Source: Armatimonadota bacterium
GTDB lineage: Bacteria > Armatimonadota > UBA10988
Assembly: GCA_016235455.1 (NCBI GenBank)
Contig: JACRKZ010000021.1
Span: 1 to 64,000 of the forward strand
Direction: 5' to 3'
DNA: 64,000 nt
Part shown: piece after piece, positions 36,981 to 46,477 of the stretch
Layout: every line of letters begins with the position of its first letter
Position numbering within the stretch: position 1 is the stretch's first letter
Notes under the pieces: generated by a model
Told to the model about the DNA's origin: nothing
Databases searched by the model: none
The model's input: the letters and a program-made list of their open reading frames with translations, nothing else
Made by a program: the position numbers and the translations under genes

Positions 36981-37709
36981 TCAGACACCGAGCATGCCGC
37001 TCAGGCCGTCCAGCACCAACTGCACAGCTTCGGCCGGGTCGTCCGTGACTCGGAACAGACCCATGTCGGCCGGCGCGATGCAGCCGGCGCCGGCCACTGA
37101 CGTGCGCAGCCAGTCGAGCAGGCCGGCCCAATAGGCACTGCCGAACAGCACCACGGGGAAGTGGCGGATGGTGTCCGTCTGCACCAGCGTCAGCGACTCG
37201 AACAACTCGTCGACCGTACCGAACCCGCCGGGGAAGACCACGAAGCCCGACGAGTACTTGACGAACATGGTCTTGCGCACGAAGAAGTAGTGGAAGCGCA
37301 GGCTGAGGTGCTGCCAATGGTTCGCCGTCTGCTCGAACGGCAGATGGATGTTGAGGCCGACGCTCTTGCCGCCGGCCTCAAAGGCGCCCTTGTTGCCGGC
37401 CTCCATGATGCCCGGTCCCCCCCCGGTAATGACGGTGAAGCCGGCCTGCGCCAGCAGCGCGGCGGTCTGCTCGGCGGCCTGGTAGTATTCGTGGCCGGGC
37501 GCCAGGCGCGCCGAACCGAACAGGCTGATCGCCGGCCGGACCCGGCACAACTGCTCGAATCCCGTGACGAACTCGCTCATGATGCGGAACACACGCCAGG
37601 TGTCTTCCTGCACGAAGTCGGCGCTCTGGCGCTCGGTACCGAGCAGTTCGGCGTCGCCGCTGTCGGTGCGGCGCGGTCGGTAGCTCGTGGTCCTCTCGAT
37701 CTCGCTCAT
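36981..37709 (-). CDS. LOG-family protein (cytokinin-activating phosphoribohydrolase type)
   Basis: The 242-residue protein has the family motifs GGGPGIMEAGNKGA and PGGFGTVDELFE. LOG enzymes cleave nucleoside 5'-monophosphates to base and ribose 5-phosphate. The neighbouring 5'-nucleotidase-like and cytidylate kinase-like genes suggest nucleotide salvage or hygiene as a theme. The start overlaps the phosphoesterase stop by 4 bases. Confidence 0.9.
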   Translation of the reverse strand: MSEIERTTSYRPRRTDSGDAELLGTERQSADFVQEDTWRVFRIMSEFVTGFEQLCRVRPAISLFGSARLAPGHEYYQAAEQTAALLAQAGFTVITGGGPGIMEAGNKGAFEAGGKSVGLNIHLPFEQTANHWQHLSLRFHYFFVRKTMFVKYSSGFVVFPGGFGTVDELFESLTLVQTDTIRHFPVVLFGSAYWAGLLDWLRTSVAGAGCIAPADMGLFRVTDDPAEAVQLVLDGLSGMLGV

Positions 37710-38521
37710 TCGGCACGTCCTGTCTCGAGCGCCAGCGGCTCGGCTTCCACGGCCTCTAGTCGGCCGTCCTCGAAATCCAGCGTGACCCGCATGACGGTCC
37801 GGCCGTGGGCCTCATTCTGACAGATCAGTGTCTGGCCCACGCGCTCGATCATGGGTGTGTGACTGTGACCGCCCAGAATGAGCCGCAGTGCGGGGCAGGA
37901 CTCGGCCAGGCGGCGGTCGGTGCGTTCGCCCAGGTGGGTCAGGGCGATGGGCAGGACGCCGCCGGCGGCGGGCCCCCACCCCAGCCCTCCCCGCGCGCGG
38001 GGAGGGGGCGAACTGTCCGTCCCCCCGCTCGCGGGGGGACTACAGGGGGGGCTGAGCAGGTCTCGCGCCGCCGCCAGCGGATCATCGAACCGCGATGCCG
38101 TGAGATGCCGCGCCCACATGGCTTCGGTGACCATGGGCGTGAGCAACCCGAAAACGACCACGCGCGGCAGGCCCGGCAGGGCGAACTCGGCCTGGGGCAC
38201 GGACCCGCCCCAGCCGGTCGGCCGCAGATTGGCGCACAGCACCGGGCACGGCGCCAGCCGCAACTTGGCGGCCTGCGGCCCGGGCCGGAAATGGTATTCG
38301 CGGTTGCCCATGGCCAGCGCGTCGTAGCCGGCCAGCGCCATGAGCCGGTGCATGGCCTCGCCGCCACGGTGCCAGCCGATGTTGCCGCAGGTCACCGCGT
38401 CGCCGCTGTCGAACAGCAGGCACGGCCCGCTGTCGGCCTTCAGCCGGGCGAGCCGCTCGGCGGTCGCCACGGACATGTGCCCGTGCAGGTCGTTGGTATG
38501 CAGCAGCGTGAGCCGGGTCAC
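37706..38521 (-). CDS. Calcineurin-like metallophosphoesterase, 5'-nucleotidase type, with an in-frame repeat insertion
   Basis: The 271-residue product has LLHTNDLHGH, FDSGDAVTCGN, AMGNREYHF, ALTHLGERTD and GGHSHTP, the metal and substrate motifs of the family. The usual GNHE is GNRE here, as seen in a branch of the family. The C-terminal nucleotide-binding domain of classical 5'-nucleotidases is missing. Residues about 157-184 (SPPCSPPASGGTDSSPPP...) are encoded by a palindromic repeat that interrupts the fold but keeps the frame. It is in an operon with LOG (4-base overlap) and follows the KdsC-like gene by 6 bases. Confidence 0.8.
   Translation of the reverse strand: MTRLTLLHTNDLHGHMSVATAERLARLKADSGPCLLFDSGDAVTCGNIGWHRGGEAMHRLMALAGYDALAMGNREYHFRPGPQAAKLRLAPCPVLCANLRPTGWGGSVPQAEFALPGLPRVVVFGLLTPMVTEAMWARHLTASRFDDPLAAARDLLSPPCSPPASGGTDSSPPPRARGGLGWGPAAGGVLPIALTHLGERTDRRLAESCPALRLILGGHSHTPMIERVGQTLICQNEAHGRTVMRVTLDFEDGRLEAVEAEPLALETGRAE
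37971..38053. repeat. Double-hairpin GC-rich palindromic repeat inside a coding sequence
   Basis: Two perfect hairpins lie in tandem: a 22-base uninterrupted palindrome at 37985-38006 and a 10-bp stem with a 2-base loop at 38019-38040. They are framed by CCCACCCC and GGGGGGG tracts. The segment is within the metallophosphoesterase gene and is translated in frame on the minus strand. Base composition is sharply different from the surrounding gene. Confidence 0.8.
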
Positions 38522-38527
38522 ATTACC

Positions 38528-39118
38528 CTACCGGCGGAAGCCAATCTTGCTCAGGGAGCCGCCGGCCTCGGCCTCGAGTTCGTTCAGCCAGCCACCTTCG
38601 GTGCTCATGCCCTGCGCGGTGTACCACGCCTTGAGCACGTCGCAGAAGCGGCCTTGGACGGTCAGCAGTCGTTCGACGAGTTCGCGCACGGCGCCGCGGC
38701 CGCCGGGAGTTTCGAGAATCAGGTCGGCGCGCTTGCGCACCAGCAGTACGCCGTCGCGCGGGGTCACGCTCAGCCGGCAGGTGAGCATGGCCGGCAGGTC
38801 GGCCAGGTCACTGCCCAGGTAGGCCACCTGGCCCAGATCGACCCAGTCCATCACGGCCTGACCACGGCTGGCCAGCACCTCCACGCCTTCCACGCGACTG
38901 GTGATGGGCGCCAGCGCCTCGGCTGACTGATCGGACACGAGAGCCACCCGCCAACCGGCGGTGAGCGCCAGTTCCATGCCGAGCAGGTCGACCCGACTGT
39001 AGAGCCCGCCGCAATCTCCGCCCAGCGACCGCAGCCCGTCGATCAGTCCGCCTTCAACACCTATCACCAACGCCGAAACGGCTTTCATCCGTTCGGCAGC
39101 TTCCAAAGTCTCGCGCAT
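38528..39118 (-). CDS. KdsC-like HAD protein lacking the catalytic aspartates
   Basis: The 196-residue product aligns with 3-deoxy-manno-octulosonate-8-phosphate phosphatase (KdsC) over most of its length, including the late GGRGAVRELVERLL and DLADLPAML segments. The nucleophile motif DxDG is replaced by GVEG (Gly20, Glu22), the SSR-type motif II by VSDQ, and GDD by GSD (102-104). It should therefore not form the phosphoaspartate. ATG 39118 has GAGAGG upstream; the longer frame is not used. It lies 26 bases after the P-type ATPase-like gene and 6 bases before the phosphoesterase gene. Confidence 0.75.
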   Translation of the reverse strand: MRETLEAAERMKAVSALVIGVEGGLIDGLRSLGGDCGGLYSRVDLLGMELALTAGWRVALVSDQSAEALAPITSRVEGVEVLASRGQAVMDWVDLGQVAYLGSDLADLPAMLTCRLSVTPRDGVLLVRKRADLILETPGGRGAVRELVERLLTVQGRFCDVLKAWYTAQGMSTEGGWLNELEAEAGGSLSKIGFRR

Positions 39119-39144: not shown

Positions 39145-40578
39145 TCAGGCAGCAGCTGCCTGGGCCATCGCCTCGTTGCCGGCGCAACTCGGGGCGCTCA
39201 ACGCGCGCACCGCGTCCACGCTCGCATCGTGACGCACGGCGGCCATGACCAGCAGGAGTAGCAACTCGTCGGCCAGCACCAGCGTGCCCAGCGGCACAGC
39301 CAGCAACGCCGTCGCGCACAGCAAAGCGCGCGACCAGCCAACCATACGCGCCAGCCGTTGCTGCTTGGCGCGCTGGCGCCGAGCCAGACCGTAGACCATC
39401 GGCAACACCGAGAGTCGTTCGGCCGGCAATGCGGCCAGCGCTTGCTCCGGCAGCTCCTCGTCGCCTTCGGTGACGACCAGGAGCAGACCGTGGCCCGCCA
39501 ACAGCGCGGCGTCGCGCGCGGCGACCACCACTACCTGCTCATGAGGCAGCCGACCCACACCCGCATCTTCGGGTTGGGCCGCCGGTGCCAAGGGTATCAC
39601 GGTTTCGAATGCCACGTCCGCCAAGCGGCTGCCGATCTCGTCACAATCGACCTCGGCCACCAGCGTCAGCGGCTCCACGCCGCTCGACAGCAGCGCCGGC
39701 ACCAGACCCATGCCGCTGTGCCGCGGCGCATCCTCGATCACCAACCAGCCGAGCACCTGCTGGTCGGCCATGACCAGCAACACGCGCCGACACGGCACCG
39801 GCGTGGCCAGGAATGGCGTCAGCGCGTCGGGCAAGGCGACTTCCAGCCGGCGCGCCAGGCTCGGCCCGCCGACCGCATGCGGCTGACCGGCGATGTGGCC
39901 CAGCAGACCCTCGCCCGGCAGCGCCAGCAGGTCGTCGACCTTGGGCAAGGCCAGGCGATAGGTGCGCGCCGCTTCGAGCACGGCCTCGGTGAGCGCCGCC
40001 GACCGCGGGCGCAGCAGCGCCGCCGCCGCGCGCAGCACGTCCACCGCGCGCAACTCGCCATGCGCCACCACTTCGGTCACGCGCGGCTTGCCGCGGGTCA
40101 GCACGCCCGATTCACACAGCGCCAGGCCGCGACCGCGCAGCAGACGCGCCAGCGCCGAGGAGGGGAGGTTCGTGTCCCAGGCGCGCGCCACCTTGGCGGC
40201 CAGCGCGGTGGGCAGGAGGTGGGCCAACACCGCGGACGAGGTGTCGTGCGCCAGCACCAGCAGTCCGGCGCCAAGCGCAGCCAGCCGCCCCAGCCCAAAG
40301 CCCAGGTCGACGCCGCACATGGCCAGCAGCACCGCCAGGCCGCCCAGGCCGGCGATAGCGCAGGTGGCCGCCGACGGCCGGCATCGCCGATCACGCAGGA
40401 CCTCGTCGACATCGATGCCGCGCACGCGCGCCAGGTCGTCAAGCGCGCGCCACTCGAGCACCCAGCCGACGGCCGCCACGCTCAACGCCAGCAGCGCCGA
40501 ACCGCGATCGCCCAGTCGCCAACACAACGCCGCGGCAAAGGCGACGCCCACGAGCCGGTGTACTTGAAAGATAGCCAT
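39145..40578 (-). CDS. Degenerate heavy-metal P-type ATPase homologue (pseudoenzyme)
   Basis: The 477-residue product follows the second half of a P1B-type ATPase: membrane helices (about 8-45, 68-118), a P-domain entry LCESGVLTRGKPRVTEV (154-170), an N-domain with PGEGLLGHIAGQPHAVGG (221-238), the GWLVIEDAPR segment and C-terminal helices (415-450). The phosphorylated DKTGT is CESGV (Cys155), TGD is lost and GDGxND is AARDA. The transmembrane CPC is absent. It cannot work as an ATPase by the known mechanism. The ATG at 40578 is one base after the sfsA stop. A regulatory or scaffold role is inference. Confidence 0.65.
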   Translation of the reverse strand: MAIFQVHRLVGVAFAAALCWRLGDRGSALLALSVAAVGWVLEWRALDDLARVRGIDVDEVLRDRRCRPSAATCAIAGLGGLAVLLAMCGVDLGFGLGRLAALGAGLLVLAHDTSSAVLAHLLPTALAAKVARAWDTNLPSSALARLLRGRGLALCESGVLTRGKPRVTEVVAHGELRAVDVLRAAAALLRPRSAALTEAVLEAARTYRLALPKVDDLLALPGEGLLGHIAGQPHAVGGPSLARRLEVALPDALTPFLATPVPCRRVLLVMADQQVLGWLVIEDAPRHSGMGLVPALLSSGVEPLTLVAEVDCDEIGSRLADVAFETVIPLAPAAQPEDAGVGRLPHEQVVVVAARDAALLAGHGLLLVVTEGDEELPEQALAALPAERLSVLPMVYGLARRQRAKQQRLARMVGWSRALLCATALLAVPLGTLVLADELLLLLVMAAVRHDASVDAVRALSAPSCAGNEAMAQAAAA

Positions 40579-40579
40579 C

Positions 40580-41287
40580 CTAGGTAAAGACCGGGATGGC
40601 GCCCCGAAGTTGCAGACCGGCAACCGACCAGCCGCAGCGCACCGCCAGCAACATCACCCCCGCCGCCTCCGCCGCGCGCAACGCCTCGCCGAAGTCGGGA
40701 TCGGTCCCATCGTTGGGTCCCACCGAGCGCACATCGTCGCGCTGCACGACGAACAACGCCGCCGCGCGCTGGCCCTCGCCCACCAACGCCGTCAACTCGC
40801 CCAGGTGCCGCCGGCCGCGCACCGTCGGCGCGTCGGGGAAGCGGCCGTGCCCGTCGTCGACCAGCGTGCACGACTTGACCTCGACCCACACCGCCGGCTC
40901 CGCCTCCAGCCGGAAGTCGAGCCGGCTGGCGCCCCAGCGCACCTCGGGCCGCACCGCGTCGTACGCACCCAGTTCGGGGATCGAACGCTGTTCGAGCGCA
41001 GCGCGGGCCAGCTTGCCGCCCAGGCGGTTGTCGATGCAGACCGGCACCACGCCGGCCTCGGTCTCGTGCAGCACACCCAGCAGATCCCACGCGGTCTTGC
41101 GGTCGGGGTTGGTCGCCGGCCGCAGATGCACGGTGCGGCCGGCGATCATCAACTCGGTCATGCGGCCAGGGTTGGGCACATGGGCGAACTGCTCACGACC
41201 ATCTATGTCGACCCGCGCCAGGTAGCGGTTCGGCCGTTCGAGCAGACGACCCTCGACTACACCTTCACCCGCGGAAATAGCGACCAT
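40580..41287 (-). CDS. sfsA: SfsA-family DNA/RNA nuclease-like protein
   Basis: The 235-residue product matches SfsA: RYLARVDIDGREQFAHVPNPGRMTELM, KTAWDLLGV, VCIDNRLGGKLARAAL, RLDFRLEAEPAVWVEVKSCTLV and FPDAPTVRGRRHLGEL. The EVK segment belongs to the restriction-endonuclease-like core. The cellular role is not well established. It sits between glmS (35-base gap) and the ATPase-like gene (1-base gap). Confidence 0.92.
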   Translation of the reverse strand: MVAISAGEGVVEGRLLERPNRYLARVDIDGREQFAHVPNPGRMTELMIAGRTVHLRPATNPDRKTAWDLLGVLHETEAGVVPVCIDNRLGGKLARAALEQRSIPELGAYDAVRPEVRWGASRLDFRLEAEPAVWVEVKSCTLVDDGHGRFPDAPTVRGRRHLGELTALVGEGQRAAALFVVQRDDVRSVGPNDGTDPDFGEALRAAEAAGVMLLAVRCGWSVAGLQLRGAIPVFT

Positions 41288-41322: not shown

Positions 41323-43161
41323 TCATTCCACCGTGACGGACTTGGCCAGGTTGCGCGGCTGGTCGATCTCGCGGCCCAGCGCGGCCGACAGGTAGTAGGT
41401 GAACAGGTAGGCCGGCACCACCGTGAGGAACGGCATCAGCAGATCGTCGGCATCGGGCACCCTGATCACCTCGTCCACCTGGCCCGTTACCACGTTGTCG
41501 CCAGCGCGCACCACGCCGATGACCCGCGCGCCGCGGGCGGCGACTTCCTGCAGGTTGCTCAGCGTCTTGTCCACCAGCTCGCGTTGGGTGGCCAGCCCGA
41601 AGACCAGCACCTCGGGTGTCATCAGCGCCAGCGGACCGTGCTTGAGCTCACCCGCGGCGTAGGCCTCGGCGCGCTTGTAGCTAATCTCCTTGAGCTTGAG
41701 CGCGCATTCCAGGCTGCTGGCGGCGTCGAGCCCGCGGCCCAGGTAGAAGAAGTGCTCCCAGTGGGCATAGCGACGGCCCATGTCCGCGATCTGCTCGCGC
41801 TCGGCCAGGATCTGCTCGAGCAGCGCCGGCACCGTGCTCAGCGCCGTGGTCACCTCGGCCACGCCGGCGTCGTCCAGCGCCCCGTTGAGCCGCGCCAGGT
41901 GCAGCGCCAGCAGGTAGAGCGCCACGAGTTGCGTGACGTAGGCCTTGGTCGAGGCCACGCAGATCTCGGGCCCGGCCCAGGTCGGCCAGTTGGCGTCGGC
42001 CTCGCGGCTCAGGCTCGAGCCGATGACATTGACCACGCCCAGCGTGAGCACGCCGCGGCGCTTGGCCTCACGCAGCGCGGCCAGCGTGTCGGCCGTCTCG
42101 CCGCTCTGGCTGACGGCGATGACCATCTGGTCGTCGCTCAGGATGGGCGAGCGGTACCGAAACTCGCTGGCCAGATCGACTTCGACCGGCAGCCGCGCCA
42201 GCTTCTCGATGACGGCCTTGCCCACCATGGCCGCGTAGTAGCTGGTGCCGCAGGCGACGATGGAGAGTCGGCGCACGGCGCGCAGCCGTTCGTCGCTCAG
42301 GCCCAGTTCCGCGGCCACCACCTGGCCCGCCGGATCGATGCGGCCGCGCAGCGTCTGCGCCACGGCCGCGGGGATCTCCTCGATCTCCTTGAGCATAAAA
42401 TGCTCGTAGCCGCCCTTCTCCGCGGCGTGGATGTCCCAGTCGATGTGCCGCGCCGGCCGCTCGACGCTCTCGCCGGCCAGGTTGGACAGCATCACCGAGC
42501 CCGCGCGCACGCAGGCCACGTCGCCGTCTTCGAGGACGATGACCGACCGCGTGTAGGGCAGCACGGCGGGGATGTCCGAGGCGATGAAGGTCTCGCCCTC
42601 ACCCAGCCCGATGACCAGCGGCGACTGCTGGCGCACGACATACAGGCAGTCGGGCGCCGCCTCCGCCACCACCGCCACGGCGAACGCGCCACGCAGCTCG
42701 GCGGCGGCCAGCAGCAAGGCGCGACCCACGTCGCCCGCGGCCGGGCCGGCCAGCTTGGCGGCCAGCAGATGGGCGATGACCTCGGTGTCGGTCTCACTGA
42801 CGAACACCGCGCCGCCCGCGGTCAATCGCGCGCGCAGCTCGGCGTGGTTCTCAATGATGCCGTTGTGCACCACGGCCAGATCACCCGCGGTGGAGACATG
42901 AGGATGAGCGTTGGGCGTGGAGGGCCGACCGTGCGTGGCCCAGCGGGTATGGCCGATGCCGAGATGCACATCCAGCGGGTCGCGTTCGACCAGCGCCGCC
43001 AGGGCACGCACCTTGCCCACGGTCTTGACCACGCGCAGGCGCCCGCGGTCGAGTACGGCCAGGCCCGCGGAATCGTAGCCGCGGTACTCCAGCCGAGAGA
43101 GTTCGTCGAGCAGCACTCCGGTGGCGCTACGGGGTCCCAAATAGCCGACGATGCCGCACAT
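41323..43161 (-). CDS. glmS: Glutamine-fructose-6-phosphate aminotransferase (isomerising)
   Basis: The 612-residue enzyme makes glucosamine-6-phosphate from fructose-6-phosphate and glutamine. It begins MCGIVGYLG with the catalytic Cys2 of the class II glutaminase domain, has RLEYRGYDSAG and two SIS isomerase domains (CGTSYYAAMVGK, SQSGETADTL, CASTKAYVTQL), and ends with PRNLAKSVTVE. ATG 43161 has AGGAGGT upstream; the longer frame is rejected because Cys must be residue 2. It heads the minus-strand run. The leader is too short for a glmS ribozyme. Confidence 0.97.
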   Translation of the reverse strand: MCGIVGYLGPRSATGVLLDELSRLEYRGYDSAGLAVLDRGRLRVVKTVGKVRALAALVERDPLDVHLGIGHTRWATHGRPSTPNAHPHVSTAGDLAVVHNGIIENHAELRARLTAGGAVFVSETDTEVIAHLLAAKLAGPAAGDVGRALLLAAAELRGAFAVAVVAEAAPDCLYVVRQQSPLVIGLGEGETFIASDIPAVLPYTRSVIVLEDGDVACVRAGSVMLSNLAGESVERPARHIDWDIHAAEKGGYEHFMLKEIEEIPAAVAQTLRGRIDPAGQVVAAELGLSDERLRAVRRLSIVACGTSYYAAMVGKAVIEKLARLPVEVDLASEFRYRSPILSDDQMVIAVSQSGETADTLAALREAKRRGVLTLGVVNVIGSSLSREADANWPTWAGPEICVASTKAYVTQLVALYLLALHLARLNGALDDAGVAEVTTALSTVPALLEQILAEREQIADMGRRYAHWEHFFYLGRGLDAASSLECALKLKEISYKRAEAYAAGELKHGPLALMTPEVLVFGLATQRELVDKTLSNLQEVAARGARVIGVVRAGDNVVTGQVDEVIRVPDADDLLMPFLTVVPAYLFTYYLSAALGREIDQPRNLAKSVTVE

Positions 43162-43225
43162 ACAAGACCTCCTGTCTTTCCTCAGCCGGCCAAATGGGGG
43201 GCTTGCCGGCGGCGACGTCAGACTC

Positions 43226-43254
43226 ATTGTAGTACGCTGGCGGTCAGCGTCCAG
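43226..43254 (-). promoter_or_regulatory. Probable promoter of the glmS operon
   Basis: On the minus strand TACAAT (43231-43226) has CTACAAT context, with a weak CTGGAC 17 bases upstream (43254-43249). Initiation near 43219 gives a leader of about 58 bases. Confidence 0.5.
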
Positions 43255-43894: not shown

Positions 43895-46477
43895 ATGAAA
43901 GCAACCACTGTGACCACCCGCGTGGGTGATCTGGACCTCTCGATCGAGACCGGCAAGATGGCCAAACAGGCCGGCGGCTCGGTGGTGGTCCGCTACGGCG
44001 ACCTGACGCTGCTGGCGACGGCAACGATGGGTAATGTGCGGGAAGGCGACTTCTTTCCGCTGACCGTGGATGTTGAGGCGAAGACGTATGCCGCCGGCCG
44101 CATCCCAGTCACCTTCTTCCGCCGCGAGGGCCGACCGGGCGACCGCTCGACGCTCATCGCGCGGATGACCGACCGACCTCTGCGCCCGCTGTTCCCCAGC
44201 GGCATGCGCAACGAGGTGCAGGTGGTCCTGACCATCCTGTCCACCGATGAGCACGGCATTCCCGACACGCTCTGCGGCCTGGGTGCTTCGGCGGCCTTGA
44301 CCATCTCCGAAATCCCCTTTGGCGGCCCGGTTGGTTCGGTGCGCGTGGGTTGGCTCGAAGGCGCCCCGATCATCAACCCGACCTATGAGCAGTTGGCCGA
44401 GAGCCAGCTCGACCTGCTGGTGGCCGGCACCGCCGACGCCATCACCATGGTCGAGGCCGGCGCTGGCGAGCTGTCGCGCGCCGACATGCTGACCGCGCTT
44501 GAGGCCGGTCACGCGGCCATCAAGGCCATCTGCGCCATCCAGGAAGAGCTTCGCTCGCTGGTGGGCAAGGCCAAGGTCGAGGTGCCCCTGCCCCAGACCG
44601 ACGAAGAGCTCAAGGCCAAGGTGCGGGAGCTGTTCGCCCCGCGCTGGCGCGCCGAGCTCGGCTCGCCCGGCAAGGAGCGCCACTACAACACGCTCAAGCA
44701 GTACGGCAAGGAAACCGCCGCCACGCTGCTGGAAGACCCCGCCAACGAAGGCCGGGAAGCCGAGATCAAGCGCTACGTGCACGAGATCGAAGGCGAGGTC
44801 GTCCGGCGCATGATCCTCGACGAGGGCATCCGCTCCGATGGTCGCGACATGGTCACCGTGCGCCCCATCGACGTCGAAGTGACGGCGCTGCCGCGCGTTC
44901 ACGGCTCGGCTCTGTTCACCCGCGGTGAAACGCAGGTGCTGAGCGTGGCCACCCTGGGTACCGTCGGCGACCGCAAGGCCACCGACTGGCTGTTCGAGCA
45001 GTACCAGGAGCGCTACTTCCACCAGTACAACTTCCCGCCGTACAGCGTGGGCGAGTGCAAGCGCATGGGCAGCCCCGGTCGGCGTGAAGTCGGCCACGGC
45101 ATGTTGGCCCAGCGCGCGCTGGTGCCCGTGCTGCCCACCGAGGAAGACTTCCCGTATACCATTCGCGTGGTGTCCGAGGTCATGGAGAGCAACGGCAGCT
45201 CCTCGATGGCCAGCGTCTGCGGCAGCACCATGTCGCTGATGGACGCCGGCGTGCCGATCAAGTCGCCGGTCTCCGGCGTGGCCATGGGCCTGTTGCAGGA
45301 GGGTGACCGCTTCCTGGTCATCACCGACATCCTGGGCCTGGAAGACCACTGCGGGGATATGGACTTCAAGGTCTGTGGTACCGAGAACGGCATCACCGCC
45401 CTGCAGATGGACATCAAGTGCGACGGTCTGTCGCGCGAGGTCATGGAGCAGGCGCTCGAGCAGGCCGAGTCGGCTCTGGCGCACATCCGCGGCAAGATGG
45501 CCGAGGCTCTGGCCGAGCCGCGTGCCGAGATCTCGCCGTATGCCCCCAAGATCGAAGTGCTGCAGATCAACCCCGAGAAGATCGGCACGCTCATCGGCCC
45601 CGGTGGCAAGACCATCAAGAAGATCCAGGAAGAGTCCGGCGCCCGCCTCGATATCGAGCAGGACGGCCGCGTCTTCATCGCCGCGCCCAACGGCGAGTCG
45701 GGCAAGATTGCTCGCGACTGGATCATCGGCCTGACCCACGAGGCGACCGTTGGTGAAGAGTACGAAGGTCCGGTCACCCGCATCTTCGGCTTCGGCGCCA
45801 TGGTTGAGATTCTCCCTGGCAAGGAAGGCCTGGTGCACATCTCGCGCCTGGCCGCCGAGCGCATCGCGCGGGTTGAGGATGCCGTCAACATTGGCGACAA
45901 GCTCAAGGTCCGGGTGAGCGAAGTCGACGATCAGGGCCGCATCAACCTCGAGCGGACGGACATCCCCATCATCGTGAACCTCGGTGGTGGCGGCGGTGGC
46001 GACGACGAAGGTCGGCGCAATCCGGCTCCGCGCGGCGGCGGTGACCGCGGCGGCGACCGCGGTGGCCGTGGTGGCGACCGTGGCGGTCGAGGTGGCGACC
46101 GTGGTGGCCGAGGTGGCTACGGCGGTGGCGGCGGCGGTGGTGACCGTGGCCCGCGCCGCGATGGTGGCGGGGGCGCTCCGGGCGCTCCGGGCGCCTCGGC
46201 TGGTCCCGGTGGTGGCGGCGAGCGCCGCGACGACCGCGGCCCGCGCCGTGACGACCGTGGCCCGCGCCGCGACGACCGCGACCGACCGCGACCGATGGGC
46301 GAAGGCCGCCGCGAGGATAACGGCCCCGTCATCGACGATCCGGATCGGCCGGCGCCGCGCGGTATGCGCGACCGTGGCGATATCGCTCCCGACAATGCGC
46401 CCGACAACGGCCCGAACGTTGCGCCTGACACCCAGGACAACGGTCCCGAGCCCGGTAACGAGCGCTACGACGACTAG
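43895..46477 (+). CDS. pnp: Polyribonucleotide nucleotidyltransferase with an Arg/Gly/Asp-rich C-terminal tail
   Basis: The 860-residue enzyme carries two RNase PH domains (AGRIPVTFFRREGRPGDRSTLIARMTDRPLRPLF in the first, FNFPPYSVGE and RREVGHGMLAQRAL in the second), a KH domain (IGTLIGPGGKTIKKIQEESG, about 562-582) and an S1 domain (about 622-690). It degrades RNA 3' to 5' by phosphorolysis. Residues about 693-860 are an extra low-complexity tail with GGDRGGRGG-type and RRDDRGP-type repeats and an acidic end. Normal PNPase ends near 700. ATG 43895 is preferred over the GTG before it. A 245-base region separates it from rpsO. Confidence 0.95.
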   Translation: MKATTVTTRVGDLDLSIETGKMAKQAGGSVVVRYGDLTLLATATMGNVREGDFFPLTVDVEAKTYAAGRIPVTFFRREGRPGDRSTLIARMTDRPLRPLFPSGMRNEVQVVLTILSTDEHGIPDTLCGLGASAALTISEIPFGGPVGSVRVGWLEGAPIINPTYEQLAESQLDLLVAGTADAITMVEAGAGELSRADMLTALEAGHAAIKAICAIQEELRSLVGKAKVEVPLPQTDEELKAKVRELFAPRWRAELGSPGKERHYNTLKQYGKETAATLLEDPANEGREAEIKRYVHEIEGEVVRRMILDEGIRSDGRDMVTVRPIDVEVTALPRVHGSALFTRGETQVLSVATLGTVGDRKATDWLFEQYQERYFHQYNFPPYSVGECKRMGSPGRREVGHGMLAQRALVPVLPTEEDFPYTIRVVSEVMESNGSSSMASVCGSTMSLMDAGVPIKSPVSGVAMGLLQEGDRFLVITDILGLEDHCGDMDFKVCGTENGITALQMDIKCDGLSREVMEQALEQAESALAHIRGKMAEALAEPRAEISPYAPKIEVLQINPEKIGTLIGPGGKTIKKIQEESGARLDIEQDGRVFIAAPNGESGKIARDWIIGLTHEATVGEEYEGPVTRIFGFGAMVEILPGKEGLVHISRLAAERIARVEDAVNIGDKLKVRVSEVDDQGRINLERTDIPIIVNLGGGGGGDDEGRRNPAPRGGGDRGGDRGGRGGDRGGRGGDRGGRGGYGGGGGGGDRGPRRDGGGGAPGAPGASAGPGGGGERRDDRGPRRDDRGPRRDDRDRPRPMGEGRREDNGPVIDDPDRPAPRGMRDRGDIAPDNAPDNGPNVAPDTQDNGPEPGNERYDD

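Follow-up and report, generated by a model that had tools for sequence, protein, structure and literature searches.

A probable retained, non-catalytic pseudo-P1B-ATPase in one order of Armatimonadota

The window analysed here, a stretch of 64,000 nucleotides from an Armatimonadota bacterium (assembly GCA_016235455.1, contig JACRKZ010000021.1, positions 1 to 64,000), contains an open reading frame whose product is homologous to heavy-metal P-type ATPases while its catalytic residues are lost. Such a gene raises the question of whether it encodes an enzyme with altered chemistry, a pump in slow decay, or a protein that the cell retains for another purpose. We favour the last answer, with a probability of roughly 0.75: a retained pseudo-P1B-ATPase of an order-specific branch, with a non-catalytic role.

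Locus, homology and predicted fold

The source genome assembly (6.5 Mb, 185 contigs) is 93% complete. The original prediction, which had placed the feature at 39145-40578, gave its coordinates correctly, and the gene itself lies on the minus strand, with its ATG at 40578 and its stop codon at 39145-39147. The following parts were assigned:

39145..40578, minus strand: pseudo-P1B-ATPase gene (P0001), 477 aa, assigned by sequence and predicted-fold homology, catalytic residues lost
40429..40557, minus strand: N-terminal hydrophobic helix pair, residues 8-50, from hydropathy, alignment and model helices (of low confidence there)
40177..40371, minus strand: second hydrophobic region, residues 70-134, corresponding to the CPC-bearing helices of active pumps
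39730..40083, minus strand: N-domain, residues 166-283, the best-preserved part, carrying the lineage residues S193, R208, G238 and S240
39232..39423, minus strand: C-terminal helices, residues 386-449, corresponding to the last membrane pair by alignment, model and hydropathy

The open reading frame of 477 codons was confirmed as predicted, and its GC content by codon position (0.80/0.51/0.85) is gene-like and resembles that of the neighbouring genes. By itself, an open frame says little here, because the GC content is 70% and the antisense strand is also open, with a 409-aa ORF across the same bases. In composition-matched random sequence, about 7-9 stops would be expected per 478 codons, and a stop-free run has a probability of about 1e-3 to 1e-4.

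The predicted homology to heavy-metal P-type ATPases was borne out by three kinds of comparison. A phmmer search against solved structures returned CopB (3sky, 2.4e-7), a copper efflux ATPase (3.6e-6) and ZntA (4umv, 5.8e-5), and NCBIfam gave matches to PRK11033 (ZntA, 2.7e-15) and TIGR01525 (heavy-metal ATPase subfamily, 4.8e-11), both far under their curated cut-offs, as is expected for so divergent a copy; a Pfam search of the protein gave no match. An AlphaFold2 model, built from an input alignment of five rows, was weak overall (mean pLDDT 59, pTM 0.44), with low confidence in the membrane part and in the P-domain half past residue 330, and good in the N-domain, where the block pLDDT was mostly 75-92. 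The comparison with CopA and ZntA that had been proposed as a check turned out in favour of the homology: with this model, Foldseek found solely P-type pumps among the matches listed, the best being the zinc pump ZntA (4umw, 2.3e-13), and the CopA N-domain (2voy_J) aligned with a TM-score of 0.87 by target and 2.1 A across 125 columns.

Catalytic motifs and structural residues

Comparison with 54 active pumps, almost all of them Armatimonadota sequences, located the former motifs as follows:

40102..40116, minus strand: former DKTGT, now C155-E-S-G-V159; D/K/T/T are invariant in 54/54 active relatives
39994..39999, minus strand: former nucleotide-binding His-Pro (SEHP), now A194-A195; His is present in 54/54 active relatives
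39649..39657, minus strand: former TGD region, residues 308-310, now A-E-V by alignment with active pumps
39508..39525, minus strand: former GDGxND region, residues 352-357, now V-A-A-R-D-A by alignment with active pumps
40228-40236, minus strand: P-C-A columns of the CPC site, now S115-A-V117 by alignment with active pumps

Replacements affect the D, K and both T of DKTGT, the G and D of TGD, the nucleotide-binding His, the DK-motif Lys and nearly all of GDGxND, the readings of TGD and GDGxND coming from the second, less certain half of the alignment, and the actuator domain with its TGE has been deleted outright. The losses that had been listed from the sequence all stood, namely DKTGT to CESGV with Cys155 at the position of the acceptor Asp, the disappearance of TGD (LTGD to LVAE), GDGxND to AARDA (the region reading VAARDA) and the absent CPC ion site. 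That list was incomplete, as it had missed the deletion of the actuator domain, the loss of the N-domain His-Pro and an eroded HAD protein next door. Kept relative to active pumps are G158, L160, G163, L182, A185, A186, G224, G237 and G277, the first three of which lie around the dead phosphorylation site. Judged by these residues, the protein has lost its chemistry while its structure stays, and we infer that it can neither pump nor hydrolyse ATP.

Hydrophobic regions persist on both sides of the P/N module, residues 8-50 corresponding by alignment to the membrane helices that precede the lost actuator domain, and one could imagine passive transport in which the helices suffice as a channel or carrier and the cytoplasmic remnant is ballast. 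We regard this as improbable, given that the N-domain and not the membrane part is best folded and best conserved, and that neither the CPC site nor the conserved residues close to it remain.

Orthologues, common origin and constraint

An alignment-based search of 291 genomes of the phylum gave three outliers, the window's own copy (734 bits), one in genome G003 (JADZEX010000026, 728 bits) and one in G004 (DTZQ01000581, 334 bits for a gene cut by its contig end), followed by the next hit at 101 bits. High scores of these three are expected, as the same sequences built the model, and the telling point is that no further members appeared. The copies occur in 3/5 genomes of one order, in three genera and two families, all of them MAGs; none was found in G001 (same genus; 80% complete) or G002 (72% complete). 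All other hits in the phylum with sequence examined carry DKTGT. Ten short or odd matches were checked as candidates for more distant pseudo-ATPases and were rejected, with DKTGT present in 10/10. A contig search across genomes with the single protein as query found nothing, and one with the family alignment returned G003, G004, ordinary pumps and one short fragment from another phylum (L076).

All three copies are without DKTGT, and those in G003 and G004 are also without every other catalytic motif visible in them; the case of orthologues that retain DKTGT beside one degraded copy was therefore not encountered. The G003 copy, from the same family as the window genome, has an intact frame of 460 aa, shares 35% identity with the window's copy and has likewise lost the actuator domain. 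The G004 copy, from another family of the order, is at least 607 aa long and open up to the contig end, so that its motif comparison stops short of GDGxND and the C-terminus. Its HMA-like and actuator domains are still recognisable (TIGR01525 2e-52, E1-E2_ATPase 2e-22), and its motifs are eroded, with TGE(S/P) reading KGTS in the eroded actuator, CPC reading AVG and DKTGT reading EGAGV; on this combination, we take it to be a less reduced intermediate. The N-terminal HMA-like domain(s) of this copy (L058/L078, 3410-5230) carry no CxxC metal site. In the P-C-A columns of the CPC site, the three copies read SAV (window), PTA (G003) and VGW (G004).

A cysteine exactly at the acceptor position invites the idea of an active enzyme with altered chemistry, in which Cys155 would accept the phosphate in place of Asp. 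A precedent for activity despite altered motifs is the eukaryotic P-type ATPase-like protein ERMA/TMEM94, a reported Mg2+ transporter that has DKQGI, carries GSSANL where GDGVND would stand and lacks a canonical TGES (PMC13322241). We consider such chemistry very improbable here, because the acceptor position is Cys in the window's copy, Ala in G003 and Glu in G004, which rules out Cys155 as a conserved feature and answers in the negative the earlier question of whether relatives share the Cys155 form. His-Pro, the DK-motif Lys, TGD, most of GDGxND and the actuator domain are all missing as well, while ERMA retains its acceptor Asp, and its D427N exchange abolishes uptake (PMC13322241). The two proteins are alike in combining a P-type fold with changes in most catalytic motifs; they differ in that the present protein has neither the acceptor Asp nor an actuator domain, and they belong to different P-type classes and domains of life.

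A tree constraining the three copies to one clade had a likelihood higher by +6.9 than the free tree, in which the G004 copy was left unresolved amid long branches. S193, R208, G238 and S240 are common to all three copies, each of them occurring in no more than 6% of the active pumps, and none of 2000 triples drawn at random from active pumps at similar distances reached four such shared residues (mean 0.05, maximum 2). On the simplest reading, the four residues were fixed in a common ancestor and kept since, and we conclude from this sequence evidence that the three copies share one origin.

The composition-corrected agreement between the window's copy and that of G003 at codon positions 1/2/3 was 0.25/0.36/0.10, compared with 0.57/0.69/0.25 for glmS and 0.49/0.57/0.18 for sfsA, figures in which the protein-based alignment favours positions 1 and 2. 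Conservation is clearly higher at second than at third positions, which indirectly indicates constraint at the protein level; this constraint appears weaker than in glmS, sfsA and LOG. For the same pair, NG86 gave dN 0.79 and dS 0.96 without codon-composition correction and with synonymous sites near saturation; dN/dS is not reliable at this sole available divergence, since third positions are almost saturated.

Genomic neighbourhood and possible role

Three annotated neighbours on the same strand bear on the interpretation:

41323..43227, minus strand: glmS, upstream of sfsA
40580..41287, minus strand: sfsA, directly upstream, its stop codon separated by one base from the start of the pseudo-P1B-ATPase gene; marks the conserved position
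38528..39118, minus strand: degenerate KdsC (Kdo-8-phosphate phosphatase) homologue P0002, 27 bp downstream

In this order, sfsA was found in four genomes and is linked to glmS in 4/4; no sfsA was found in the G001 assembly (80% complete). The order is glmS-sfsA-pseudo-ATPase in the window and glmS-thiD-sfsA-pseudo-ATPase in G004, and G002 and G003 have glmS-sfsA without the pseudo-ATPase, the G003 copy being located elsewhere. A split pump with its missing half in an adjacent gene was considered and rejected, the neighbours being sfsA and the KdsC homologue. Further P1B-type pumps, at least two in number (C168, C36), are encoded in the source genome. Elsewhere in the window, a long Gly/Arg/Asp-rich C-terminal tail of polynucleotide phosphorylase was noted at 45900-46477 (plus strand).

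The gene might instead be a slowly decaying pseudogene of an unneeded pump, its decay masked by a GC-rich genome in which stops arise rarely. Decay would fit the facts that no motif has survived, that the actuator domain has been deleted, that the copies diverge fast and that neither the G001 nor the G002 assembly yielded one; constraint weaker than in the neighbours and an antisense frame that is likewise long and open would fit it too. Against it stand the reading frames in three genera of two families, two of them complete and the third uninterrupted as far as its contig reaches, the conserved position beside sfsA, and the chance of only about 1e-3 to 1e-4 of staying stop-free at equilibrium. 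Structural residues and the four lineage residues were moreover kept while catalytic ones vary, and the N-domain fold is confidently predicted. We therefore judge the pseudogene reading unlikely, and the original view of a maintained pseudoenzyme instead of a decaying gene is supported by the dead orthologues, their open frames and the sfsA-linked position in G004.

The downstream gene matches a solved KdsC (7t35, 7e-14), and its nucleophile motif DVDG has become GVEG (39050-39061), i.e. DxD to GxE, and changes extend to the region of the catalytic Lys and to the leading Asp of GDDxxD; its sequence marks it as a second dead HAD protein next to the pseudo-P1B-ATPase. The corresponding protein of G001 is likewise dead, with GLEG, and the motif is an intact DVDG in G002, G003 and G004. 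As the source genome has both kdsA and kdsB and no second KdsC was found there, another phosphatase presumably handles the Kdo-8-phosphate step. The adjacency of the two degenerate HAD genes may be due to chance, because they lie on different contigs in G003 and G004.

Several further features of this region were recorded. A C-terminal extension with KIGFR near its end (window 38528-38560, minus strand; L053 7747-8370; L054 8918-9529; end of L052) is common to the KdsC homologues of the window genome's family, whether dead or intact, and missing from the aligned relatives from outside the family. Ahead of the KdsC homologue of G001 lies a murA-like gene in the opposite orientation, and within this homologue a run of N (a scaffold gap) with a repeated flanking end, at about 12020-12200 of L052, prevents its frame from being read through. 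At 37706-38521 (minus strand) lies a small metallophosphoesterase that weakly matches nucleotidases of the UshA/SoxB type, giving the order KdsC-metallophosphoesterase-LOG.

Taken as a retained pseudo-P1B-ATPase, the protein is probably used by the cell as a structural or regulatory membrane protein and not as a pump, because all ATP-burning residues are lost and equally dead versions occur in two related bacteria; we infer that selection maintains it for this non-catalytic role. In an ancestor of the order, a heavy-metal pump would have ceased to be phosphorylated and to bind nucleotide and would have lost its CPC ion site, followed in the window genome's own family by the loss of the actuator domain; what was kept would be the membrane helices and, in the cytoplasm, a folded module of P/N type. 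Its most likely role would be that of a membrane-anchored docking or regulatory protein, which may bind a partner via the N-domain face bearing the conserved S193/R208/GGxS. As a guess, candidate partners may be one of the cell's own active P1B pumps (C168, C36) or an envelope enzyme. A more far-reaching version, which we put forward only tentatively, would see an order-wide stand-alone family with a newly gained non-catalytic membrane function, its defining marks being the residues rare in active pumps; here, the protein would probably be co-transcribed with the dead KdsC-like HAD protein, so that two pseudoenzymes from a single superfamily would make up a regulatory module.

The protein resembles ZntA, CopA and CopB in the order of P- and N-domain elements, the structural Gly/Leu positions and the N-domain fold, but unlike them it has no DKTGT, TGD, His-Pro, CPC or actuator domain, and GDGxND is almost gone. 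Guanylate cyclase beta of Plasmodium, which carries a degenerate P4-ATPase-like domain, offers a eukaryotic parallel (PMC6592433), although that domain is of the P4 class and fused to a guanylate cyclase, whereas the protein described here is a stand-alone bacterial one derived from P1B pumps. We found no bacterial counterpart in the open-access literature searched, which is no proof of novelty. P-type ATPases are unusually strict on DKTGT, which was intact in 99.77% of 9,634 members surveyed, the remainder (17 bacterial and 5 eukaryotic) being single point changes (PMC3896382). Those variants share with the present protein a DKTGT that is not intact, but they carry single mutations, in contrast to a lineage in which all motifs are lost. 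Together with the less reduced intermediate in a sister family, this loss of all motifs would show a stepwise path from a pump to a non-catalytic protein, and the lineage would offer a simple system for asking what a P-type fold does without ATP.
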